NCBI RefSeq assembly: GCF_000400955.1
Contig: NC_021284.1
Location: 744,001-808,000 of the forward strand
Reading direction: 5' to 3'
Source: Spiroplasma syrphidicola EA-1
GTDB lineage: Bacteria; Bacillota_I; Bacilli_A; Mycoplasmatales; Mycoplasmataceae
Length of the DNA stretch: 64,000 nucleotides
The notes beneath the pieces are model-generated. The model was not told the origin of the DNA, ran no database searches, and saw only the letters and a program-made list of their open reading frames with translations. Below are positions 32,023 to 62,614 of this stretch, in pieces. Positions within the stretch are counted from its first letter, which is position 1. Every line of letters begins with the position of its first letter. The position numbers and the translations under genes were made by a program.

Positions 32023-33612
32023 CTATTTCAAAGTATTAGTAAAACTAAAAGTTCCTGTAATCAATTTTGAATCAGATGTTGCGGTCACTGTAAATTTAAC
32101 AACTACCCCTGATTTTTGATTTGTATCTTTATCTTGATCATTTGTTAAATTAAAATCTTTCTCTGAAACTGATAATTTAGTCTGTTCGTTAATCGCAGTC
32201 ACAACTGCTTTAATAATTTCAGCATCCTGATTTAATTCACCATATGTCTGTTCAGACTTTGCAACTGTTCCTAAATCAGTCATAGTAACCTTCTCAATAC
32301 TATTTTTTTCCAAAGGTGGTTCAGTCAAAGTATTAGTAAAATTAAACGAATCTTTAATTAATTTTGAATCAGATGTTGCAGTCACTGTAAATTTAACAGC
32401 TACCCCTGATTTTTGATTTGCATCTTTATCTTGATCATTTGTTAAATCAAAATCTTTCTCTGTAACTGATAATTTAGTCTGTTCGTTAATCGCAGTCACA
32501 ACTGCTTTAATAATTTCAGCATCCTGATTTAACTCACCATATGTCTGTTCAGACTTTGCAACTGTTCCTAAATCAGTCATAATAACCTTCTCAATACTAT
32601 TTTTTTCCAAAGGTGGTTGAGTCAAAGTATTAGTAAAATTAAACGAATCTTTAATTAATTTTGAATCAGATGTTGCAGTCACTGTAAATTTAACAGCTAC
32701 CCCTGATTTTTGATTTGTATCTTTATCTTGATCATTTGTTAAATTAAAATCTTTCTCTGAAACTGATAATTTAGTCTGTTCGTTAATCGCAGTCACAACT
32801 GCTTTAATAATATCAGCATCCTGATTTAACTGACCATATGTCTGTTCAGGCTTTGCAACTGTTCCTAAATCAGTCATAGTAACCTCACTAATACTATTTT
32901 TTTCCAAAGGTGGTTCAGTTAAAGTATTAGTAAAATTAAACGAATCTTTAATTAATTTTGAATCAGATCTTGCAGTGACTGTAAATTCAACAACTGCCCC
33001 TGATTTTTGATTTGCATCTTTTTCTTGATCATTTGTTAAATCAAAATCTTTCTCTGTAACTGATAATTTAGTCTGTTCATTAATCGCAGTCACAACTGCT
33101 TTAATAATATCAGCATCCTGATTTAACTGACCATATGTCTGTTCAGGCTTTGCAACTGTTCCTAAATCAGTCATAGTAACCTCACTAATACTATTTTTTT
33201 CCAAAGGTGGTTCAGTTAAAGTATTAGTAAAACTAAAAGTTCCTGTAATTAATTTTGAATCAGCTTTTGCCGTAACTGTAAATAATACTTTTCCAGCTAC
33301 TTGTTTAGCTTTTTCATCTTTATCATTTTTTAAATTAAAATCAGCTGCCGTAACAGTTGATTTTAATTTTTTTGATAAAGCACCATTAATTGCATCAACT
33401 ACACTTTTAAGAATTGTTTCATCTTTATTTAAATCTCCATATGTCTTGTCATGATTTAAAATTGTTTTTGGATCATTTACAACAGTTTTTGAAATATCTT
33501 TTTTTTCAACTGTTGGATTATTGTCATTGTTGGTTGTTTTACAAGCGATAACACTTGTTGCACCAGTCGCGGTAAGACCAAAGGCTCCTAATATTGCTAG
33601 TAATTTTTTCAC
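32023..33612 (-). CDS. Spiralin-repeat lipoprotein, five tandem domains
   Basis: 529 residues. Start GTG 33612, with the leader MKKLLAILGAFGLTATGATS and lipobox VIAC, preceded by AAAGGAT at a suitable distance. The mature protein is five copies of one domain: a divergent first copy (about residues 38-141) and four near-identical copies of 99 residues (142-240, 241-339, 340-438, 439-529). Each has the shape seen in spiralin: a helix (IIKAVVTAINEQT), a loop ending DFNLTND, and a beta strand FTVTATSDSKLI. Copies 2 and 4 share DFDLTND, copies 3 and 5 share DFNLTND. It is expected to be a major surface protein that varies in length. A 17-nt A/T tract lies upstream. Confidence 0.85.
   Translation of the reverse strand: MKKLLAILGAFGLTATGATSVIACKTTNNDNNPTVEKKDISKTVVNDPKTILNHDKTYGDLNKDETILKSVVDAINGALSKKLKSTVTAADFNLKNDKDEKAKQVAGKVLFTVTAKADSKLITGTFSFTNTLTEPPLEKNSISEVTMTDLGTVAKPEQTYGQLNQDADIIKAVVTAINEQTKLSVTEKDFDLTNDQEKDANQKSGAVVEFTVTARSDSKLIKDSFNFTNTLTEPPLEKNSISEVTMTDLGTVAKPEQTYGQLNQDADIIKAVVTAINEQTKLSVSEKDFNLTNDQDKDTNQKSGVAVKFTVTATSDSKLIKDSFNFTNTLTQPPLEKNSIEKVIMTDLGTVAKSEQTYGELNQDAEIIKAVVTAINEQTKLSVTEKDFDLTNDQDKDANQKSGVAVKFTVTATSDSKLIKDSFNFTNTLTEPPLEKNSIEKVTMTDLGTVAKSEQTYGELNQDAEIIKAVVTAINEQTKLSVSEKDFNLTNDQDKDTNQKSGVVVKFTVTATSDSKLITGTFSFTNTLK
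32026..33189 (-). repeat. Four 297-bp tandem repeats inside the spiralin-repeat gene
   Basis: Repeat units of exactly 297 bp (99 codons), nearly identical in DNA over most of their length, starting near 33189, 32892, 32595 and 32298. For example GGTGGTT recurs at 32315 and 32612. The last unit ends in the sequence found at the end of the first, divergent domain. Confidence 0.85.
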
Positions 33613-45501: not shown

Positions 45502-45643
45502 ATTTTATACTCCTTTGTAAAAACTATTTATTATTGCTTTTATTATAACCAAAATTGGACAAGAAAAATATTGAAAATTAATTTTCTAGAAATTTTAAAA
45601 GTCAGTTATAATTAATTATAAGAAAGCATTCGCTTTCAAATTG

Positions 45644-45808
45644 TTTTATTAGTTAATAGTCCTCGACTATTTTAAAGGGAATTGAGTTAAAAGCTCAAGC
45701 TGCCCCAGCATCTGTAAGGATGATGAACATTGCATAAACTCACTGAGATTATTCTTGGGAAGAGGCAATAAGTAAAGTGATTCTAAGCCAGAAGACCTAC
45801 TAATAAAA
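45644..45808 (+). promoter_or_regulatory. Cobalamin (vitamin B12) riboswitch aptamer
   Basis: The conserved core is present in order: AAAGGGAATT, then CTGCCCCAGCATCTGTAAGG, then CACTGAG, TTGGGAAG, and the B12 box AAGCCAGAAGACCT (45785-45798). The closing stem P1 pairs TTTTATTAGT (45644-45653) with ACTAATAAAA (45799-45808). A TATAAT at 45607-45612 could be its promoter. Cobalamin binding should control the plus-strand genes at 45970 and 46466. Riboswitches of this class are rare in mollicutes as far as I know. Confidence 0.9.
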
Positions 45809-45840
45809 GAAATAAAAAGTAAATATCCCTGGGGGTGTGA

Positions 45841-45903: not shown

Positions 45904-45932
45904 AAAGAACCCTTATTTTATTGGTTCTTTTT
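45904..45932 (+). terminator. Riboswitch-controlled terminator
   Basis: AAAGAACC and GGTTCTTT form a stem followed by a T-run, 38 bases before the start of the DUF4430 gene. With the riboswitch upstream it gives transcription attenuation. Confidence 0.85.
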
Positions 45933-45969
45933 TATTTTTTTAGCCTAAGAATTAGGAAAGGAGAACTTT

Positions 45970-46461
45970 ATGAAAAATTTTTCATGAAAAAAATATTTGA
46001 TGTTTCTAAGTCTAGCAATTGTAATTCTTGGAGCCATTATTTTAAATATCATTTATATTCCAAAATATTATGATCAACTCCATAAAAATAACAGTGTAAC
46101 TTATAAAAATGTTGAAATTCGGGCAACTGATAAAAATGGTGTTGAGTATTTAAATAAAACCCTAATTTTCAATAATGTTACAACATTAGCTGATGTCATT
46201 GAAAAAGACACCAAAGATTTTGATTATTCAGTAACACCTGGAATTGGGATTTTTGTTATCCGCATTGGTAACATTAAAACTGATATTAATAAAGAATATT
46301 TTGATCTTCGTAGTGGAGATAGCGATGATAAAGACGCGCAAAACATTAATCCAATTTGTAAAGGGGAAAATAATAGTTGCGAAAAAGGAGCAACAGATGT
46401 TATTTTAGAAGATATTAATGTCTTTCGTTTTGTTTTAACAGCTGTTAAAACAAATGGTTAA
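45970..46461 (+). CDS. DUF4430 (transcobalamin-like) membrane-anchored protein
   Basis: 163 residues: a single N-terminal hydrophobic segment (about residues 11-30) anchors the protein, and the outside part has TLADVIEKD, then GIGIFVIRIGNIKT, close to the DUF4430 pattern of the transcobalamin/intrinsic-factor C-terminal domain. Its role is probably to capture cobalamin for the ECF transporter component encoded next. Start ATG 45970 follows AGGAAAGGAG. The riboswitch upstream is the strongest evidence for the substrate. The next gene starts four bases after the stop, or overlaps it. Confidence 0.7.
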
Positions 46462-46465
46462 GCAA

Positions 46466-47089
46466 ATGAAAAAAGATATTTTTTGAACAAATTCAATTAA
46501 ATTAACAATGAAAATTACCATAATTGCCGTTTTTAGTGCTCTTGGCTTAGCCTTAAAAGCAGCGTTTGCTTTTTTACCAAATATTGAATTTGTGACCTTT
46601 ATTTTAATGTTTAGTATTTTTTTCTTTAGCATTGAAATTGGTTTTGGAATTGTGAATGTCTATTGTACTTTAAATATGGTAACCTTTGGAATTGCCGATT
46701 GAAGTTTAATGTATTTTGTTATTTTTAATTTATATGCCGTAATTATTCTTTGATTAAAACCGTTAATTAGTAAGTGATGATGAACAATGATTATTATGAA
46801 CGGCTTATTTGGTTATTTATTTGGTAGCCTTTATGCCATCCAAACGGCTCTGTTATTTAATAGTACCAGTGTTGGTTTAGCCTATTGAATTAATGGTTTA
46901 GTCTTTGACGCTATTCATGGGACCGGAAATATTATTGTTACCGCGCTGCTATTTGCTCCAGTGTATAAATTAATGGAACAACTAGTACAAAAATGACCCT
47001 TTATTTTTAATAACCGTTTTATTATTAATAGTGAAATAAATCTTTGCCAAAAAAATAAATTATCAAAAAAAGAATTAACCTTAAGTTAA
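46466..47089 (+). CDS. ECF transporter S component, predicted cobalamin-specific
   Basis: 207 residues with about six membrane segments (KITIIAVFSALGLALKAAF first) and a basic C-terminal tail, like S components of energy-coupling factor transporters. It sits directly after the DUF4430 gene and under the cobalamin riboswitch, so vitamin B12 uptake with the shared EcfA/EcfT module is the likely role. An earlier in-frame ATG at 46454 overlaps the end of the DUF4430 frame; I prefer 46466. Start and stop both fall in tight spacing, with the terminator stem enclosing the last codons. Several Trp are TGA. Confidence 0.75.
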
Positions 47090-47099
47090 TTCTTTTTTT
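47068..47099. terminator. Terminator overlapping the stop of the ECF gene
   Basis: AAAGAATTAAC and GTTAATTCTTT form a stem around CTTAA, followed by T residues on the plus strand. It also lies after the ribA stop on the minus strand. Confidence 0.85.
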
Positions 47100-47102
47100 G
47101 TT

Positions 47103-47702
47103 TTATAATAAATGACCCATTTTATCTTTTTTGGCTTGAAAATATTTTTCGTTAGTTTCATTTTTACCAACAATTAAAGGGGTTCTTGCTGTAACATTAA
47201 TGCCATTCGCAATTAGCTGTTCAATTTTATCAGGGTTATTGGTTAATAAATTAACTTCCTTTATTCCTAGTAATGCTAAAGCTACACTAGCACTATCATA
47301 ATGTCTTAAATCAGGAGCAAAACCTAATTGTTCATTTGCTTGCACAGTATCATAACCTTCATCTTGGAGATTATAAGCTTTCAGTTTATTAACCAAACCA
47401 ATTCCCCGCCCTTCTTGGGGCAAATATAAGACAACCCCCGTACTAGCATTAATTGCTTCTAAAGCGTTTGCTAATTGTTCACCACAATCACACCGTAATG
47501 ATCCTAATACATCCCCAGTAAAACACTCTGAATGTAATCGAACCAAAACTGGTTGATTTAAATTAAGTGGTTCTTTAATAATTGCTTTAATTATTTCGCG
47601 GCCATTTTGATCGCTAAATAATCTTAAGGCAAAATTTCCATATTTTGTTGGCAACTTTGCGCTGACAACATTTGTTAAGCTGTTTTCGCCCATAAATATC
47701 AT
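47103..47702 (-). CDS. ribA: GTP cyclohydrolase II (RibA), apparently without other rib genes nearby
   Basis: 199 residues. Zn-binding cysteines C60, C71 and C73 occur in SECFTGDVLGSLRCDCG, followed by YLPQEGRGIGL, the GTP-binding and catalytic region of RibA. It opens GTP to the first riboflavin precursor. The DHBP synthase half of bifunctional RibBA is absent. The start could be ATG 47702, or the second ATG three codons later, which has AAGGAA at better spacing. It begins 47 bases after the stop of nrdJ and may be co-transcribed with it. No ribD, ribH or ribE is in this window. Confidence 0.92.
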   Translation of the reverse strand: MIFMGENSLTNVVSAKLPTKYGNFALRLFSDQNGREIIKAIIKEPLNLNQPVLVRLHSECFTGDVLGSLRCDCGEQLANALEAINASTGVVLYLPQEGRGIGLVNKLKAYNLQDEGYDTVQANEQLGFAPDLRHYDSASVALALLGIKEVNLLTNNPDKIEQLIANGINVTARTPLIVGKNETNEKYFQAKKDKMGHLL

Positions 47703-47748
47703 TCCTTACAATTAGTTCATTGTTATATTTAATAATTTTTCGGTTATT

Positions 47749-50283
47749 TTATAAACCACATTTTAACTGGACATTACAGTTATTACATGTAACACATCCT
47801 CCAGCATCAATCATTGTTCCTTCTTTACAAATTGGACAAACATCACCAACCTCAGCCCCAATTTTACGGTCTTGGTTAATTCCACGCATTTTTCCAACAG
47901 TATGTAATTTTTCATCATCTTGTTGACCACTACGGTTATCAACTTCAACTCCTAATTGATCAAAGTTTAATTGTTCTAATGCTGGATGTTGTTCATCAGT
48001 TGTTAATGATAAGACTTGGGCATCACGAGAACCATCAACATAAACAGTTCCTCCTTTTGCCCCTCCTTTGTATAAACGAGTATAAATTTTTTCAACATCT
48101 TTAACTGAGTAACCACGAGGGGCATTAACAGTTTTTGAAATTGATGAATCAACTCAACGTTGAATAATACATTGTGTATCAGCATGGTCTTCTGGTGCTA
48201 AATCCATCGCAGCAACAAAAATATCTGGTAAATTTGTTGCACTATACCCTGGATTATATTTTAATCATTCATCAACAATTTTTGCATTTACTTCAATGTT
48301 TTTTCCTAATCGTCCTGAACGATAGAATTTAAAGCCAAAGTATGGTTCTAATCCTGTTGATACTCCAACCATTGTTCCTGTTGAACCAGTTGGGGCAATT
48401 GTTAATAAGTGTGAATTACGAATTCCATATTTTAAAATATCTTGACGAATATCTTCTGGCATTTTTTTCATATATCCAGTATTAATGAAACGTTCGGGAC
48501 TAATTAAGAATGGGAATGATCCTTTTTCTTTTGCTAATTCGATTGAAGCACGGTAAGCTTCTGTTGCCATTAATTCAAAGATTTTATCAACAATTTGATT
48601 ACCTGCCACACTACCATAACGAACCCCATGATAAATTAGTAAGTCATGTAATCCCATTACTCCTAATCCAACTCGACGTTCTCCTAAAGCTTGTTTTTTA
48701 TTTGCTTCTAGGAAATATGGTGTTGCATCAATAACATTATCTTGCATTCTAACACAAGTACGAACTGTTTGGCGTAGTTTATCATATAAAATTTCTTTCG
48801 TTGTTTTATCAACAAAGTTAGCTAAATTAATTGCCGCTAAGTTACATACTGAGTATGGTGCTAATGGTTGTTCCCCACAAGGATTTGTCGCCACAACTTT
48901 CATATCATATGCTTTCGCATTTGTCATATCATTTGCCGTGTCAATAAAGAAGATTCCTGGCTCTGCTGAATAATTGGCACAAAAATTAATTAAATCTCAT
49001 AAATCTCTGGCTTTCATTTTATAGTAAGTTTTAACTTTATATCCTAAAGCTTTTCATTCATTGATATCACCAATTTTTGATCAGTTTTCATCATAAAAGG
49101 CTTTTTCTTCTTTTGTATAATTATCCAAGTCAGGGAATTGTAATTCTCAATCTTCATTGTTTTCAACTGCTTGCATAAATTTATGGGTAATTGTTACAGA
49201 GATATTAGCCCCTGATAAAAAGGCTGGGTTATTTACCTCTCATGTTCCCCCTTCATCTAATTTAATGCGCGCTTCGCGAACAACAGCACTGTCATTAATA
49301 TCTGCTTCTTTGTTAACAGCATATTCATATAGTGTGCGATCAAGACTTGTTAATGGTGAAAACTTAATTTTACGACTTGCTTCATCCCGAATTAATTTAT
49401 CATTCCCATTTTCTTTTAATCAACGTAGAATTTTTGGGTTTTGCATTTTTGAAATAATAAATTCAATAATATCAGGGTGTCAGTCCGCCATCATAATCAT
49501 TTGGGCTCCTCTTCGTGACCCTCCTTGTTCAACTAAATGTGTTAAAGTTGACAAGTCATTTAATCATGATACCGCTCCTGATGAACGACCCCCAACTGTT
49601 TTAGCAACAGTTCCACGTGGTCGTAAAGTTGAGCCATTTGTTCCAACTCCTCCCCCATGTGACATAATTTCCATTACTTCTTTTCGGTGAATTGAAATTC
49701 CTTCCCGTGAGTCTTTAATAAAGGGCATTACAAAACAGTTAAAGAATGTAACATCACTATTACTTCCAGCTCCATATAAAACACGACCTGCTGGAACAAT
49801 ATTTAAGTCTTTTAACTCATTGTAAAAACTTTCTAAATGTGGTGGTTGGTTTTCCTCTTGGTTGCTTAAAGCTTTAGCAACTCTTCAAGCAATTTGTTCA
49901 TAAAAGATTTCTAATGGTTTTTCCACCATATGTAAATTTTTACGAATTATATTATTACTATTATTAATTAATAAGTCTTTATCGATACTATGAACATATT
50001 CTTCCTCAATTTTAATATCACAAGTTCCATTAATTCGATCAACTTCAACAATGTTCCCAATTCCACGAGTTGGGAATCAGCCATCATCTTTAATAACTGT
50101 TAACACTAAATCATTCTTTTTTAATGTTTTTAAAGTATTATCTTTTTGAGCATAGCGGTCTAAAACAACCATTCTTGAAACTCCATCAAAAACCATTTGA
50201 TAACTATCTTCAATTTCTTTTAGATATGGGAAATGTTCACGAATATCTTGATTTAAACTTGCTATTAATTCTTTTGCGTACAT
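47749..50283 (-). CDS. nrdJ: Adenosylcobalamin-dependent (class II) ribonucleotide reductase
   Basis: 844 residues, typical of the larger class II enzymes. The ten-stranded barrel carries NPCGEQ with Asn467, Cys469 and Glu471 (radical site) and the redox Cys pair C183 (NCFVMPF) and C480 (YSVCNL). The C-terminus ends in a zinc ribbon (CPICKEGT, CVTCNNC, LKCGL). The enzyme reduces ribonucleotides to deoxyribonucleotides using vitamin B12 as radical source, so it works in anaerobic and aerobic conditions. It lies two genes from the B12 riboswitch and uptake genes. The start MYAKELIASLN at 50283 follows AAAGGAGAG. Many Trp are TGA. Confidence 0.95.
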
Positions 50284-50384: not shown

Positions 50385-50408
50385 TGCTTTTGTTATTATA
50401 CAAAAGCA
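50385..50408 (-). terminator. Rho-independent terminator of mupG
   Basis: TGCTTTTGT and ACAAAAGCA pair around TATTAT, followed by seven T on the minus strand. The stem overlaps the mupG stop codon. Confidence 0.88.
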
Positions 50409-51436
50409 ATTGGTTGGCCAGGTTTTAATAATTCAATTAAAATCCCTTCTTTTTCCAGGTTTGCAAGGTAATTAGTTTTTTCATCAATTTTAATTGGTAA
50501 TTTTGTGAGATAAATCTCGCCATTATAACGATGATAATTTTCATTATCAATTAATAATGTATACGGTTTAACTTCGCCGCTAATTTCATTCTGAAATGGT
50601 ACGACTAGACTATTATTTTGTCCTAATCCCCGACTTTCTAAAAACCTTAAAACATAAGAATTGCTATCTTCGCGCAAATGATAACGCTGATTTTGTAATT
50701 TTGCGATAATCGCTTTTGGCAGATTAGCATAATCTAATTTTATCGTAATATTGTCCGATTTGTTAATTTTTGTTAAAAATTTTAATTCTTCTTCACTAAC
50801 ATTTAAATCCCCAATAATACAAGTATCAATATCGTGCTTTTTATATCATTGTAACTGGACATATGGCTCTAAAAAGCGCATTTTTTCGACTGTTGGTAAT
50901 CCTTGAAAAACAGGTTTACGAGGATGGGCTTGAGAAGCAATAAAGGCATTTGTTTTAACACCATATTCTTTAATAATTCGATTACGATAAATTAAAGTCC
51001 CCTCATCCATCCCAGTATATGGTTTTGGATAAAAGTTATAAGAAACCGATAAACGACTACTTCCTCGTAATTTAATAATTTCAATAATATCATCTAAGCT
51101 ATTATCACTACCATTGATTTGAATATCAAACGGTAAAGTATCAATTATGCTAATTACTTCGGTAAGACTAAAACCAAAGTCTAACCGAATCGCATCTGGT
51201 TTTCAAGTCATAATTTTTGCTTGATCAAAATATTTTTTACTAATGTCAAGACAAACATACATCCCTAATTGTTGGGCATAATTAATTAAAGTCGCTAATT
51301 CAGTCTCATTTTGGCTTTCGACCAAATGGCCACTACAAAAAACATAATTAAAGCCGGCGCTTTGCGCTGTTTTTAAATAAGCTTGGTTTTCGGTCAAACT
51401 CATTTCTCCCGTTGTATAAATTGAAACTCCTAACAT
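50396..51436 (-). CDS. mupG: MupG-like 6-phospho-N-acetylmuramidase (DUF871)
   Basis: 346 residues. The N-terminus MLGVSIYTTGEMSLTEN, then IQINGSD, GLPTVEK and a C-terminal beta domain with PYTLLIDN are the DUF871/MupG pattern. MupG in Bacillus hydrolyses MurNAc-6-phosphate-GlcNAc disaccharides inside the cell. It follows murQ on the same strand (23 bases after a hairpin), which supports a muropeptide role. The strong AGGAGGT ribosome-binding site argues for expression. Several Trp are TGA. Confidence 0.85.
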
Positions 51437-51458
51437 CTTGACCTCCTGTTATGGGAAT

Positions 51459-51486
51459 AAAAGACATCTCAAAGGAGATGTCTTTT
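51459..51486 (-). terminator. Hairpin between murQ and mupG
   Basis: AAAAGACATCTC and GAGATGTCTTTT form a 12-bp stem around AAAG, between the murQ stop and the mupG ribosome-binding site. There is no room for a separate promoter between it and mupG, so mupG probably depends on readthrough or a leaky stem. Confidence 0.8.
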
Positions 51487-51495
51487 ACCTATAAA

Positions 51496-52401
51496 TTATT
51501 GATTTTTTAATACTGCGGCAATACTGTTATTAGCTGTAGCTAGTAGGGTAATACTTTCCTCATAATTAACATTACAGAAAATCATCACTATGGCATGCTT
51601 ACATGAATAATTTGCTTCCACTAATGCGGCATTGATTTTTTCATCATCCGCCCCAGTGATTTCTTTAATAATCCGTGCTGTTCGTACTTTTAACTTCTCA
51701 TTTGAAGCTTTTAAATCAACCATTAAATTTTGGTAAACTTTTCCTCATTTAATCATTAAGGTTGTTGAAATCATATTACATACTAACTTTGTGGCTGTTC
51801 CGGCTTTCATTCTTGTACTTCCAGTTACAACTTCTGGGCCAGTTACAACCGCAATTGTTTGGTCGGCAACGGCACTCATTTCTGAGTTTTTTGTCATACA
51901 CATTCCAACCGCTAAAGCGCCAACTGTTTTAGCATATTCTAACCCAGCTAAAACATATGGTGTTCTTCCTGAAGCAGCAATTCCAATGACTGTATCTAAT
52001 GGTCCTAAGTTAATTGCTTTTAAATCAGCAACTGCTTGGGTTTCATCATCTTCAGCTCCTTCAACGGCATTACGAATGGCGTAATCTCCCCCAGCCATAA
52101 TACCAATAATAAGTTGATCACTAACACCATAAGTTGGGGGCATTTCAGAAGCATCTAAAACACCAATTCGCCCTGATGTTCCAGCTCCAATATAAATAAC
52201 GCGACCATTTTGTTGAAAACGGGGAAAAATTAAATCAACAACTGTTGTAATTGTTGGCAATTCACTTTTAATCGCCTCAGCAATTTTCCCATCTTCATTA
52301 TTAATAATTGTTAAAATTTCTGATGTACTTTTTTGGTCAATATCCATACTATTTATATTTCTTTGCTCAGTATCAATTTTTGACAAATCAATTTTTTTCA
52401 T
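51496..52401 (-). CDS. murQ: N-acetylmuramic acid 6-phosphate etherase
   Basis: 301 residues. Start ATG 52401 has AAGGAG seven bases upstream; an earlier codon would sit on that site. SIS-domain motifs are clear: GAGTSGRIGVLDASEMPPTYG, then GIAASGRTPYVLAGLEYA and GSTRMKAGTATK. MurQ cleaves the lactyl ether of MurNAc-6-P to GlcNAc-6-P and D-lactate. It follows the PTS gene by 22 bases, so both are in one transcript with rpiR. Confidence 0.95.
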
Positions 52402-52423
52402 AAATAACTCCTTCATTTAACTT

Positions 52424-54145
52424 CTATTCTACTTTTGTTTTAGCAATTTTTAAGCGTTCAGCTTTTGGTAATTGATAATATGATACTGTTCAGTACACAA
52501 AAATCCCAACTACTGTACAAAAGGCTGTTGTTCATAAAATTTGTTGTCAAAGTTTATATTTACCATTTTTTTTGTACAATTCTTTCATATCTTTACCACC
52601 AATTTTAACAATTCGTGAATATCCAAATAAGGTTACTAATAGTCCCCCAGCAATTGATATTCCACAAGCGATTAAGTATAAAATTACTGCTAAAACAATA
52701 TTTCCTGAATCAGTTGTCATCATAAAGGCTGCTAAAATTCCTGATGGCCCAAACATTGCGTTAAGACCAAAAGTAATGTTTCCTCACATTGACATTGCGC
52801 CAATAAAGAATCCGGCAAAACCAGCTCCAATTGATGAAGTAATAAATGGACGAACACGAGGTAAAGTTACCCCATAAATCATTGGTTCTCCAATTCCAAA
52901 AAAGGCTGGAATCAATGATCCTTGAATTTGACGACGTAATAAACTACCTTTATCAGCTAATAATCATAAAGCGATTCCAGTTCCAAACTGAGCCATTCCA
53001 GCCATTGCTAAAATTGGGAATAATCCATTAACACCAGTTTGTTGAATCATCATTGCATAAATTGGGACAAATCCTTGGTGAATTCCAAACGCGACCGCAG
53101 TTAAGAAAATTGCGGCTAGGACGAAGGCTCCAAATGGATTTGTATGGAGATGAAGAAAGAATCATGCTACTCCCATGTATAAATATCCTGAAACAGGAAT
53201 TAATACAAAAATATTTAAGATTAATAATGCGAATAAAACTAGGGTTGGTGTTCCAATTGTGTCAAGAACTCCAGGCATAAACTTACGAACCCCACGTTCT
53301 AATCAAATTGAGGCTGTTGCTGTTAATAATGCTCCTAAAATATTTCCTGAAGCATAACCAAAAACTCATTGCCCACTTTCATTCATTTCAGGACGGAATC
53401 CAACTGTTAATCAGTTACTTGCTGGATTATGAATTGGAATTCCTAAAAAAGTAATATTATTTGGATCAGTATTGATAATTAATTTAATTAATTCTGAACC
53501 AAAAACTGGTGAATACATTGAAGCAACCATTGCTCCTAATACTCCACTACCTCCAAATACTTCGGCTGTTCTTCAACCAACAATAATAATGAAGGCATTT
53601 TTTCAAATATTTAATAACAAGTTTAAAGCGTTAAATCATGACTGAACAACTGCTGAAGCGGTTGTAATATCGCCACCAAAAGCTGATTGCATAATTCCAG
53701 CAATCCCAGCTAGAATCCCTGCTCCAATGAAACCAATAATCATTGGTGAGAAAATTCGTGAAAACTTCGTAAAGAAGTTTTGTAATCAATTTGATTTTCC
53801 TTTTATTGCTCCTTTTACTTGTTTTGCGACGTCAGCAGCACTGACAAAGTCGGCGCTTTGTTCAGCACCATCAACTGGACTAGTTTGTTGTGCATTAACT
53901 AATTTCCCAAATTCTTGGGTAACTGTTCCAACAAAACCAGGTCCTAAAACGATTTGTAATTCAGTTGCTGAGGGTGTTAAAATTCCCATTACATTTGTTA
54001 CTGTTTTTAATTTTTCTAAATCTACGTTAACGCCAGGTTTGATGTTTAAGCGTAGTCTTGTTAAACAATTTGTAAATGAAACAACATTCTCAGGCCCAAT
54101 TACACCGACAAGATCTTGTGCGGTTTGTTTTGGATTTTTTGCCAT
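52424..54145 (-). CDS. murP: PTS EIIBC component, probably for N-acetylmuramic acid
   Basis: 573 residues. The EIIB domain is first, with the phosphorylated Cys27 in TNCLTRLR. A linker rich in Gln, Ser and Ala follows, then the EIIC glucose-superfamily domain with about ten membrane segments and the substrate loop GIGEPMIYGVTLP. EIIA is not fused, so a separate EIIA, usually of the glucose type, must supply the phosphate. Order with murQ just after and rpiR just before gives MurNAc as the probable sugar, although sequence alone cannot tell from trehalose or beta-glucoside permeases. Confidence 0.8.
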
Positions 54146-54181
54146 TTTCTATTCCTCCTGATATATCCTTTATTATCTTAA

Positions 54182-54218
54182 AACAACTGTTCTTAATTCA
54201 CAATTAAAAACAGTTGTT
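54182..54218. promoter_or_regulatory. Inverted repeat between rpiR and the PTS gene
   Basis: AACAACTGTT and AACAGTTGTT, ten bases each, flank 17 bases that contain a smaller AATT repeat. It may be an operator for the RpiR-type regulator, or the terminator of its gene. Confidence 0.55.
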
Positions 54219-54254
54219 CTGTAATTTCACATCAAAAATTGTAAAATTTTCTAT

Positions 54255-55091
54255 TTAAAATTTATTAATAATGGTATTTTCTAAAATATGATGATATTGC
54301 TCCATATCAGTTGTTAATAAACTTGAATACAGCATATCTAATGCAAATAATAAGGCAAAACGACTTGTTGTCGAAATTAATCGTTCAATTGATTCATTAC
54401 TTGAAATAGTAATTGCGTTATTAGCAATTGCCGCTAAACTATTATTGGCATTTTTACAAATAACAGCAACTGGGGTTCTATTATCTTGGCAAATTTTTGC
54501 TAATTTAATTAAGTCTAACGTTTCCCCTGAATAACTAATAAAAATTGCTAAATCATCAGGCGATAATTGTTTTGCCAGAAAATAACCGCTATGAAAATCA
54601 TTAACAGCAAAAATATTAAAACCTAACCGCAACAGTTTTTCTTGAAAATCCTTAGCAACGTTATATGTTCCCCCAACGGCAAAAACAACAATTTTACGAC
54701 TTTTTTTAATTAAGGTAATTATCTCATCAAAACTTTCTTTTTGTTTAATCACTAAACGAAATGTATCGTGTAAAGTTTTAACAGTATTGTGGTATCCCTT
54801 AATCATAAAACTATTATTATTTTGTTCATTTAAGAGGAACTCTTCTCCCGTTAAATTATAATTAAAATATTTAATAACATGAATTAATTCTTTGTAGCCG
54901 TCCAAATCAAGGTATTTAGTAAAACGATTTATTGTTGCAACAGAAGTATAAGTATATTCTGCCATTTCGGTAATTGTAATATCAGGGATAATAGCTAGAT
55001 TTTGAATAATATACTTTGCAATAAATGAAAAGCGATGATCACTGTTTAAACTAATTTCCTTGATTTTCCGAATAATATCATTTTCTGTCAT
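54255..55091 (-). CDS. RpiR-family transcriptional regulator (MurR-like)
   Basis: 278 residues. N-terminal helix-turn-helix with TITEMAEYTYTSVATINRFTKYL and a C-terminal SIS sugar-isomerase domain with VFAVGGTYNVAKDFQEKL and IFISYSGETLDLIKLA. In MurR-type regulators the SIS domain senses MurNAc-6-P and relieves repression. The gene is followed by the inverted repeat at 54182-54218 and the PTS gene, so it probably controls them. It starts nine bases after a small membrane protein gene. Rather than fused, it is separate from the etherase as in MurR/MurQ operons. Confidence 0.88.
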   Translation of the reverse strand: MTENDIIRKIKEISLNSDHRFSFIAKYIIQNLAIIPDITITEMAEYTYTSVATINRFTKYLDLDGYKELIHVIKYFNYNLTGEEFLLNEQNNNSFMIKGYHNTVKTLHDTFRLVIKQKESFDEIITLIKKSRKIVVFAVGGTYNVAKDFQEKLLRLGFNIFAVNDFHSGYFLAKQLSPDDLAIFISYSGETLDLIKLAKICQDNRTPVAVICKNANNSLAAIANNAITISSNESIERLISTTSRFALLFALDMLYSSLLTTDMEQYHHILENTIINKF

Positions 55092-59016: not shown

Positions 59017-59907
59017 TTTTTTTATATTTAAAGAAAAGGCATAACAAGAATAGCTGAAAGTTAAAATAATAAATCCTAAATTCCCTAATAAAGGTTGTCA
59101 ATAATAAGAAAAAGGAATATAGGAATCAATACTATTAATAAAGAAATAAACATTATAAAAATTTTTATACATTTCCGCATTTGCATATAATAGCAATCAT
59201 GTTGAATATTTTTGGGGAACAAAATAACCAATTATGCTGATTGCTAAAACTGAAGAACTATCATTTGGCGATAAAAAAATATCACCAAAAATTGCCATAA
59301 AAAATATAATTAAAATATTTATCGTCTGAATTACATAAATATTTTTTAAAGTTCCAGTAATAGATACACCGATAAAAGTACCTAAAATTGAGCTCAATAA
59401 TAAGGCAAAAATTACGCCTAAAATTTGTCTAAAATCTATAATCGATAAAATTCAATTAATAAAGTCATTAGTGGGTGTTATAAACCCAAAAATAAACAAA
59501 TAAAGAAAACTACAGGCAATCGTAAATAAACTTGCAACAATATTTGCGTTAATAAAACCAAGTAAAAAATTAATTTTAGTTATTTTAAAGTTATTCATCT
59601 GTTTGATAAAGATACTTTTTCTTCAATCAAATAAAATAAAAGAAGTAAATAAAATCATTGATAAAATTGGGACAAAAAATAAGGTTGGGTATAAATAATG
59701 ATTTATTGGATTATGAAAAAATGAACTTTTAATTGCTAAATCAATAAAACTTAATAAGGCAGGAATTATAATTAAATATATATAAGATTTAAAACTTGTA
59801 AAAATTGTTTTAGAAGTGTATAAAAAAACTTTATGTTCTTTAATGAAACTATTCTTTACATCGATAAAAGAATTTTGGACTTTATATTTCAATTTTAAAT
59901 TCAACAC
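59014..59907 (-). CDS. ABC-2 type transporter permease
   Basis: 297 residues with about six membrane segments and a VPQKYST segment near the last third, as in the permease at 109-1014. Start codon is uncertain: a GTG at 59907 and TTG codons just after lie within the end of the GH85 gene (stop 59882), and no clean ribosome-binding site decides between them. It is last in the operon ATPase, permease, GH85 lipoprotein, permease. The second permease may pair with the first as a heterodimer. TGA Trp at 59623-59625 and 59197-59199. Confidence 0.75.
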
Positions 59908-62614
59908 CTTTCATTATATTTCCTTGCTTATCAATTGGAATAATTGCTAAATTAATATGTTCTAAACCTTCAACGTTTATATCTCTAATAAAATAATTAT
60001 TCATAGTTGTTTCCCCAGCACGATTTCAAATCCCTGATTTCGGTGATTTTATATAAAATTCATAATAATCAACATTATTACCAATGCTTTCAAATAAAAA
60101 TCTTATATTAACACTATTTTCTCTTTTAATTAAATACTCAATTTTTAAATTCGAAATTAAAACTGGATCTTGGGATGCAAAACTACTACTATTTTTAAAT
60201 ATTTTTAATTGCCCAACATTTAGTTTTGCATTTATATCAGCATTTGCCGAAAAAGATAACCCAATACGCGATATTTTATGATTATTGTCAATTGTCCCTT
60301 TAATTTGCGATAAATCAAAGGTAACTATTGTTCAATTATCATTATATTTTTGCGAATTTATTTGTTCTAATTCTTCATAGCGATTACTTTTACCATCAAT
60401 ATCAGTTATAGTAACTAATCCTTTAGTATTTAAATTACTATCATTTTTAATTGCCATTTGAACTAAATTATTTTTATTTTTAATATCAGTTCCCATAATA
60501 TTTCATAGATATTTTTTATTCGCTTCCAGTTTTGCTGGAATAACTTTTCCATATTCATCAAAACCTGAACCAATAGATAAGGAATTAGTTTTTTTAAAGA
60601 CATCATAATAATCATAAAAACCATTAATTTTATTGTATGCTGGTTTTTTAGGGTTTAATATATCATAACTTGATAAATCACTATTATCAGCTTGATCAAT
60701 ATTTCACTGATATGTTGGTAAAACATCAGCTAAACGTTTATTAGTAAACGGATAATTTTTTACAACATAACTATTTCCTTCAGAATCTCTATCAACAAAT
60801 TGAATACCACTCCCCATTGAAAAATTAGTTGCAAAATTAATATCTTGGTCTTTATCACTAATTACTGTTTTTTCTTTAATTAAATTACCAATTCCATAAG
60901 AATTAGAATTGATACCATTGTTAGAATTTGCATTGTAAATGAAATTTTTAATAAACTTTTCATTATCTGTATCTTCTAATTTTTTGTCTTTATTTTGAAC
61001 TTTTATTCGATCATCATTTAATAAAAATAAGTTTTTATAATGTGTTCTATCTTTAAATCCTCTGTAATCATTTGATAATCTGTTTAAATTTAAACCTTTG
61101 TCATTAGGGTTAATATTAGTGTTTAAACCATTAAAAATAATATCATTATATAAATTATTGACTTGTGTTGCAAAAACAAAATCAGAGATAGAATTATAGT
61201 TTGTTAATTTTTTTGCGGCATATGAAGCAATCGCTCCAGATCCGTCATCCATATAACCTGAGAAAGAGGATCAAACATTTTTATCATAATCAACTATACT
61301 TTTTCCACTATTATTGTAGCCATTCACTAACTTATAAGACAATTGTTTTCAATCATAAGTTCCAATTGATCACGTATAACCCCCACCTGGTTCACTAATG
61401 TTTAACATTGTATATAAATTATTATTTTTATAAAATGGATTTTCTTTTAAAAACATTTCAGATTTTTCAACAGGCTCGGAAAAATCTAGTTGAATGTCTA
61501 TTGGTGTTTTAGTTTTAATTGCTTCTTGGGTAATTCCATAAGTTTCTTTATCAACATAATCATTTCCACGTTTTGATAAAGTTGATCATGCTCGATAAAA
61601 TGTTAAGCGCAGTTTTTTAACATTTTCGTCTTCTGACCTGTTAATTTTTTGGTTAAATTGATTAACAATATCTAGAATAACATGGTAATCTAATACCGTT
61701 CCATTTGGATCAAACCCATTAGATTCATCATTTAAAAATCAACCATCAAAGCCATTATATTGGGCAATTTCAATCAACTTGTCAACTATTAAATAATTTC
61801 CACTTGCATCTTTTTTAATAAAGTTAGTTAACATATCTTTTGTTAAACCATGTGATCCATCAAGAAAAACATTTCCATAAATTGGGACCCCATTTTTATG
61901 AGCAATATCAATAGTATCAGCTGGGGGCGGAACTATTGGCCCTTCAAACCATGATCCTGATCAATTAATAAAATTATTAATATACTGCCAATTAGTATTT
62001 GTATTTTCAAATGGATTTTTACTTCCTACAATTGAACTATCAAAAGTTCTATGTTTTCTAGTTGAAAATCCTAAATAATTAAAATTCATTCCTTCATGTT
62101 GTTCTGGGTTATAAAATGGTACATCTACACGAGTTTGTAATTTTACATTAGATCTATTATATTTTGCATCATTATCATTATTCGGTGACCAATCTAAAAT
62201 TGAATTAACTGTTTTATAACTTTGAGCTTTACTTGTTATTCCAAAATCTGACGCAAAATTACCATTAGGCATAAATCCTTTATTCATTGGAGCCCCAGTC
62301 ACAGCTTGTTTTTTAATTCCTTCTTTATATTGAAAGCCAGTACTAAATTTAGAATAATCTAAAAATCTACCAGAATTTAAAGCTTTAATTGACTGTCCAT
62401 TTTGGCTAATATTTCCATCAACATTTATTCCAGCCGGGTTATTGTTTAGATCATATTTTAATCCGTCCCCATAATCTAAATCACTTCAATCAAAATCAGG
62501 TAACGAATTTAAAAACCTATTTCCATTTTTATCACCAATATCACAAGCTACAACAGCCAAAGTCATTGCTCCTACTACTATAACAGAAGCTAATAAATTT
62601 AATCTTTTTTTCAT
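59882..62614 (-). CDS. Surface lipoprotein, GH85 endo-beta-N-acetylglucosaminidase-like
   Basis: 910 residues. Leader MKKRLNLLASVIVVGAMTL with lipobox AVVAC. The GH85 core is visible around residues 220-300: HKNGVPIYGNVFLDGSHG, then a LIEIAQYNGFDGWFLN with the catalytic pair Asn295 and Glu297 (FLNDES), spaced as in ENGase where the substrate's own acetamido group takes part. Beyond it are an extended beta-rich region and a C-terminal domain that may bind carbohydrate. It would cut the chitobiose core of N-glycans at the cell surface. Start ATG 62614 has AAGGGAT upstream. It sits between the permease genes of an ABC operon, suggesting sugar or peptide uptake or export linked to deglycosylation. 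Confidence 0.82.

Follow-up and report, generated by a model that had tools for sequence, protein, structure and literature searches.

A vitamin B12 uptake and NrdJ locus in Spiroplasma syrphidicola as the probable half of a B12-controlled supply of DNA precursors

A vitamin B12 locus was analysed in a 64-kb stretch of DNA (the window; 64,000 nucleotides, positions 744,001 to 808,000 of contig NC_021284.1) from Spiroplasma syrphidicola EA-1, a wall-less, fly-associated member of the Mycoplasmataceae whose genome is a single contig of 1,107,344 bases. At this locus a cobalamin riboswitch heads two uptake genes, encoding a DUF4430-like membrane-anchored protein and an energy-coupling factor (ECF) S component. 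The gene for a B12-dependent ribonucleotide reductase, nrdJ, is convergent to the uptake genes and lies 0.7 kb beyond the S component gene (Table 1). The gene coordinates are valid only with TGA read as tryptophan (code 4), since the standard code splits nrdJ into fragments whereas code 4 gives one 844-aa frame with 12 TGA codons translated as W. NrdJ scored well over the curated cut-offs of NF005991 'vitamin B12-dependent ribonucleotide reductase' (1322 bits, cut-off 854) and TIGR02504 (572 bits, cut-off 400) and matched PF02867 at E 1e-110. The riboswitch was the sole Rfam match within the window, and the RF00174 search of the genome found none ahead of nrdJ itself. An earlier interpretation, made without database searches (the sequence-only reading), had named both the riboswitch at the head of the uptake genes and the B12-dependent reductase, and both identifications are borne out; it made no mention of the genetic code or of the ribA gene that separates the uptake genes from nrdJ.

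Table 1. Coordinates of the B12 locus in the window and of the related riboswitch-headed operons
Feature	Position	Strand	Basis or remark
Cobalamin riboswitch aptamer RF00174, full length	45633..45818	+	cmscan 107.9 bits, E 4.5e-26, model 1-189/189
Terminator-like hairpin, AAAGAACC-loop-GGTTCTTT then T run, in the aptamer-gene interval	45904..45938	+	Direct reading and shuffle-controlled search
DUF4430-like membrane-anchored protein, 163 aa, code 4	45970..46461	+	Homologues matching PF14478
ECF-type S component, CbrT-like (vitamin B12), 211 aa, code 4	46454..47089	+	PDB sequence match 6FNP_A
ribA, stand-alone GTP cyclohydrolase II	47103-47702	-	Between B12 uptake genes and nrdJ
nrdJ, adenosylcobalamin-dependent class II ribonucleotide reductase, 844 aa, code 4	47749..50283	-	NF005991, TIGR02504, PF02867
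Third B12-riboswitch operon: ABC-2-type permease, lipoprotein without family match, small membrane protein; ogt next downstream	L008 8573-11725 = C1:1023572-1026724	-	RF00174 78.7 bits
Riboswitch-headed salvage operon, G018 example	L185 2432-7030		Equivalents in eight other g1 genomes

Searched directly, neither uptake protein gave a Pfam or NCBIfam match of note. A sequence search of solved structures with the S component returned one match, chain A of 6FNP (E 1.5e-8), and a six-row profile of the protein returned the same lone match at E 1.3e-28. This structure is ECF-CbrT of Lactobacillus delbrueckii, which imports cobalamin and cobinamide (PMC5997447). The nine best Foldseek matches of the predicted model (predicted local distance difference test score, pLDDT, 82) were all ECF S components, none reaching E 0.001. 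Taken with the riboswitch, the gene neighbourhoods and the co-occurrence pattern below, the match points to a cobalamin S component homologous to CbrT, in agreement with the sequence-only reading. The shared ECF module is likewise encoded elsewhere in the genome, with EcfA1/A2/T found at L266 2373-5126 when these genes, named earlier as a check, were searched for. Unlike ECF-CbrT, the S. syrphidicola S component is preceded by the membrane-anchored DUF4430-like protein and appears to be tied to NrdJ.

The earlier description of the upstream protein as a DUF4430 binder holds only through its homologues. PF14478 was matched by 5 of 18 of these, some of them adjoining NrdJ in other Bacilli; the window protein itself had no direct Pfam match, PF14478 included, up to E 0.1. 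Its structure model was too poor for use (pLDDT 47), and gene context makes it a probable helper of the S component in capturing corrinoid. Further neighbourhoods came from an NrdJ scan of genome contigs with near records (Spiroplasma) excluded. The gene order in three Erysipelothrix metagenome-assembled genomes (L060, L061 and L063) was DUF4430-like gene, S component, nrdJ, and in Enterococcus nrdJ was flanked by the DUF4430-like and S component genes. Five of the seven nrdJ loci checked in these two genera had uptake genes, and none of the seven had a B12 riboswitch.

The adenosyltransferase CobA is encoded at C1:943482, so that a CbrT-like S component, EcfA1/A2/T and CobA are all present to supply NrdJ with adenosylcobalamin. 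A need for preformed adenosylcobalamin, suggested by the absence of a PduO-type adenosyltransferase from all 60 family genomes surveyed, was dropped once CobA was found.

Elsewhere in the genome there is a complete and apparently intact nrdF-nrdI-nrdE operon (C1:482555-486174), all three proteins of which scored over curated cut-offs. NrdF aligned over its full length with its nearest solved protein, the Mesoplasma florum class Ie protein 6GP2 (E 7e-196). Three metal-binding glutamates are replaced by V118, P178 and K212 and the tyrosine Y125 is retained, a combination found in 33 of the 33 family NrdF proteins inspected. On these residues, S. syrphidicola NrdFIE is of the metal-free class Ie (VPK) type, sharing the V-P-K substitutions, the nrdFIE gene order and full-length homology with the M. 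florum reductase (6GP2/6GP3, PMC11846895). VPK enzymes with this gene order are common in the Mycoplasmatales, and the VPK variant has been reported as the sole reductase of 65 species (PMC11846895). In the NrdF tree the S. syrphidicola protein grouped with those of G016, G019 and G027 (support 0.86; genomes of the family survey are given as G numbers). This grouping suggests that nrdF was inherited within the genus and lost in G014, Spiroplasma chrysopicola.

Three RF00174 matches were found in the 1.1-Mb genome, at C1:789633 (107.9 bits, in the window), 482221 (81.7 bits) and 1026564 (78.7 bits). All three aptamers span model positions 1-189 and lie far above the gathering threshold of 31.5 bits. 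The second is 169 nt upstream of nrdF, so that S. syrphidicola combines NrdJ, in one genome, with a B12-independent reductase that follows a B12 riboswitch. The position of nrdFIE behind this second riboswitch indicates a regulated backup. The third aptamer heads the operon of a permease, a lipoprotein and a small membrane protein, possibly a second B12 uptake route. Three genomes without NrdJ (G015, G017 and G020) keep the small membrane gene of this operon but have a split lipoprotein gene, and the lipoprotein may therefore serve B12 capture. G023 (L175), G024 (L178) and G022 (L170) have a second DUF4430-like gene under riboswitch control, ahead of genes for a lipoprotein and an ATP-binding cassette ATPase-like protein, possibly another corrinoid uptake route.

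In the uptake leader and the third leader a terminator-like hairpin separates the aptamer from the gene, and the one in the window is a probable transcriptional OFF platform. Hairpins were scored by a custom search with shuffled controls, as the consensus terminator scanner misses long-loop hairpins; it omits the window hairpin because the loop is 11 nt. Across the family, 36 of 52 riboswitch leaders had a hairpin score of at least 9, against 3.7% of shuffled leaders.

The window locus is, we consider, probably one half of a system that places DNA-precursor supply under B12 control, the half for uptake and consumption of the vitamin. The DUF4430-like protein and the CbrT-like S component would capture corrinoid, which would be imported via the shared EcfA1/A2/T module; CobA would adenosylate it, and NrdJ would then make deoxyribonucleotides with the cofactor. 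A full B12 pool would be sensed by the cobalamin riboswitches and transcription stopped, closing the window uptake operon, nrdF-nrdI-nrdE and the lipoprotein/membrane-protein operon. With B12 exhausted, NrdJ would fail and all three operons would open, so that more vitamin would be scavenged and the class Ie reductase would replace NrdJ. That the aptamers bind their ligand, that control runs in this direction and that one enzyme hands over to the other is inferred from the family of the riboswitches, from the terminator hairpins and from precedents elsewhere.

To place the locus among its relatives, 60 genomes of the same family were surveyed. An intact NrdJ was found in 19 of them, and G019 and G045 have a broken one. 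CobA was present in all 19 genomes with intact NrdJ, plus 2 others, and the S component in 18 of the 19, with G004 counted as positive on a weak match (E 1.3e-4) directly behind a riboswitch. The S component copy of G050 has a TAA within the matched stretch. As had been supposed from the window, the imported B12 is likely to be consumed by NrdJ, since the S component goes together with NrdJ and CobA throughout the family and several relatives have it in one operon with nrdJ. An above-threshold riboswitch lay directly before nrdF in 7 of the 9 genomes with both reductases and in both genomes with broken nrdJ; none of the 29 genomes with nrdF and without NrdJ had one above the gathering score. 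When 44 aptamers were placed in a tree, those before nrdF in G000, G016, G019 and G032 clustered together, but the nrdF aptamers of G050, G057 and G058 were nearest to the uptake riboswitch of their own genome and therefore reflect separate copying or gene conversion. For three minus-strand riboswitch loci the class was assigned from S component positions.

Several observations weigh against the B12-controlled system proposed here. The terminator in the nrdF leader is weak, with a U-U mismatch, an 11-nt loop and a score of 7, and the consensus scanner found none before nrdF. No terminator hairpin was found before nrdF or nrdDG in Spiroplasma eriocheiris (G016), where control could therefore be translational. 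G029 and G059 hold both reductases without a riboswitch before nrdF, and the uptake operon of G022, which has NrdJ, looks broken. The Fisher values for the associations above (1e-13 for CobA with NrdJ, 4e-13 for the S component with NrdJ and 3e-6 for the nrdF riboswitch) come from counts that ignore shared ancestry; the states concerned recur in several genera.

The two reductases might instead be divided by oxygen rather than B12, the riboswitch of nrdFIE serving for fine-tuning only. NrdJ is oxygen-independent, as this explanation would have it. Formation of the dihydroxyphenylalanine (DOPA) radical in class Ie needed oxic coexpression with NrdI (PMC11846895), which also fits such a division. 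However, the regulator before nrdFIE is a cobalamin sensor, one that is missing from nrdF in all 29 NrdJ-less genomes, and in relatives the same sensor precedes salvage and class III genes despite their differing oxygen needs. Division by oxygen is on these grounds unlikely.

The sequence-only reading had gone further and proposed that, failing a class I reductase elsewhere, DNA synthesis in S. syrphidicola depends on imported cobalamin. Such a dependency would accord with the presence of NrdJ, CbrT-like uptake and CobA in the genome and with NrdJ being the only reductase found in seven relatives (G004, G014, G018, G022, G023, G024 and G056), the nearest one included. The suggested genome search for nrdE, nrdF and nrdI, however, returned the complete operon, the very finding that the sequence-only reading had named as its own refutation. 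NrdJ is therefore not the only reductase here, and imported B12 should not be indispensable for DNA synthesis. That this operon is apparently intact under its own B12 riboswitch, and that a VPK class Ie enzyme can be an organism's sole reductase, argue the same way, and an essential NrdJ in S. syrphidicola is quite improbable. The dependency appears to hold instead in S. chrysopicola and the six other relatives. S. chrysopicola is the nearest relative, with an NrdJ 97% identical to that of the window, and the DNA flanking the nrd operon is conserved in it until some 40 bp ahead of the riboswitch, where the sequences diverge; no nrdFIE follows. With the flank kept and nrdFIE absent, the proposed dependency appears to sit in the sister species.

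It could also be that the riboswitches are inherited fossils that no longer regulate anything. Riboswitches do remain in G015, G017, G020 and G021 of the citri clade, which lack NrdJ, the S component and an intact CobA, and near-threshold remnants of 22-27 bits stand before nrdF in 4 of the 29 NrdJ-less genomes (G033 and G038-G040). In S. syrphidicola, by contrast, the three aptamers match the model end to end, well over threshold and with hairpins downstream. The lowest nrdF aptamer scores are, moreover, found where nrdJ is broken (38 bits in G045) or gone (the four remnants), and this graded decay points to selection tied to a working NrdJ. A fossil origin of the S. syrphidicola riboswitches is thus very improbable. 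That the S component serves another substrate, such as riboflavin, and lies near nrdJ by chance was raised by the adjoining ribA and echoed by the top Foldseek fold match, the riboflavin S component TmRibU, but is hardly credible and was rejected given the lone sequence match to CbrT, the cobalamin riboswitch upstream, the near-constant pairing with NrdJ, the adjoining nrdJ, S component and cobA genes on one strand in G047-G049, and the homologues adjoining nrdJ in Erysipelothrix and Enterococcus.

One genome appears to have been caught in transition. In G019 a single in-frame TAA interrupts nrdJ (C1:347893-350425) and the nrdDG operon (C1:136562-138460) is broken, while nrdFIE, CobA and B12 uptake remain intact. 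This genome is apparently at an early stage of NrdJ loss.

The same sensor was also found before other B12-free sources of deoxyribonucleoside triphosphates (dNTPs). In S. eriocheiris a cobalamin riboswitch precedes nrdD-nrdG, encoding a class III reductase, and it is this operon that is broken in G019. In nine g1 genomes a cobalamin riboswitch heads an operon for purine nucleoside phosphorylase, deoxynucleoside kinase and transketolase, which also holds a 2-keto-3-deoxy-6-phosphogluconate (KDPG)-type aldolase and a nucleoside deoxyribosyltransferase, with parts broken in G021 and G026. This operon is read as one of deoxynucleoside salvage. No reductase of any kind was found in 10 of the 60 genomes, six of them in the genus of S. 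syrphidicola. Five of these six (G015, G017, G020, G021 and G026) keep B12 riboswitches before salvage genes; none of the five still has NrdJ or an intact S component, and CobA is intact only in G026. On balance we favour the view that the cobalamin riboswitch acts in this family as a general switch of dNTP supply, set before class Ie, class III and salvage genes alike. Gain and loss of NrdJ would then drive the gain and decay of riboswitches, species of the S. chrysopicola type would make DNA only with imported B12, and the citri clade, devoid of reductases, would keep orphan salvage riboswitches.

Control of a B12-free reductase by B12 is known elsewhere. In Streptomyces coelicolor, as Borovok et al. 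(2006) are cited in PMC4991794, a B12 riboswitch represses a class I reductase (nrdABS) beside NrdJ; unlike the arrangement described here, the reductase is of class Ia and the host a large-genome actinomycete, whereas S. syrphidicola has a class Ie nrdFIE and ECF B12 uptake in a wall-less organism of 1.1 Mb. In the delta-proteobacteria Desulfovibrio vulgaris and Desulfuromonas, nrdDG under a B12-element is likewise a B12-independent reductase predicted to be B12-repressed beside NrdJ (PMC545781), although only the anaerobic class III is involved, compared with class Ie, class III (G016) and salvage in the Spiroplasma family. The account of class Ie in PMC11846895 makes no mention of riboswitches or NrdJ, unlike the arrangement in S. 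syrphidicola. In the open-access literature, with most subscription papers outside the search, nothing was found that joins Spiroplasma with riboswitches and B12, or cobalamin and riboswitches with deoxynucleoside kinase and salvage. For class Ie and for salvage, B12 control therefore appears to be undescribed.

Three further features of the window were noticed, the first and the third of them named by eye. Upstream of nrdJ and on the same minus strand, positions 50396-55091 hold a set of genes for N-acetylmuramic acid utilization (a MupG-like DUF871 protein, murQ, a phosphotransferase system EIIBC and a MurR-type regulator), which in this wall-less host suggests that cell-wall sugar of other bacteria is scavenged. 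A lipoprotein in the style of spiralin, with several near-identical tandem repeats (KNSI...TMTDLGTVAKPEQTYGQLNQDADIIKAVVTAINEQTKLSV...), lies at 32023-33612 (minus strand). A large lipoprotein resembling endo-beta-N-acetylglucosaminidase (GH85) lies at 59882-62614 (minus strand), and host glycoproteins may be its targets.

If true, B12 control would be seen here for the first time, as far as the search reached, both on a metal-free class Ie reductase and on a deoxynucleoside salvage operon, and in very small genomes. What was proposed as a vitamin dependency becomes a testable control circuit in two closely related spiroplasmas of flies, only one of which has a B12-free reductase in reserve. 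The circuit would also predict which spiroplasmas need B12 from their insect host or its gut bacteria to replicate, and which need deoxynucleosides.

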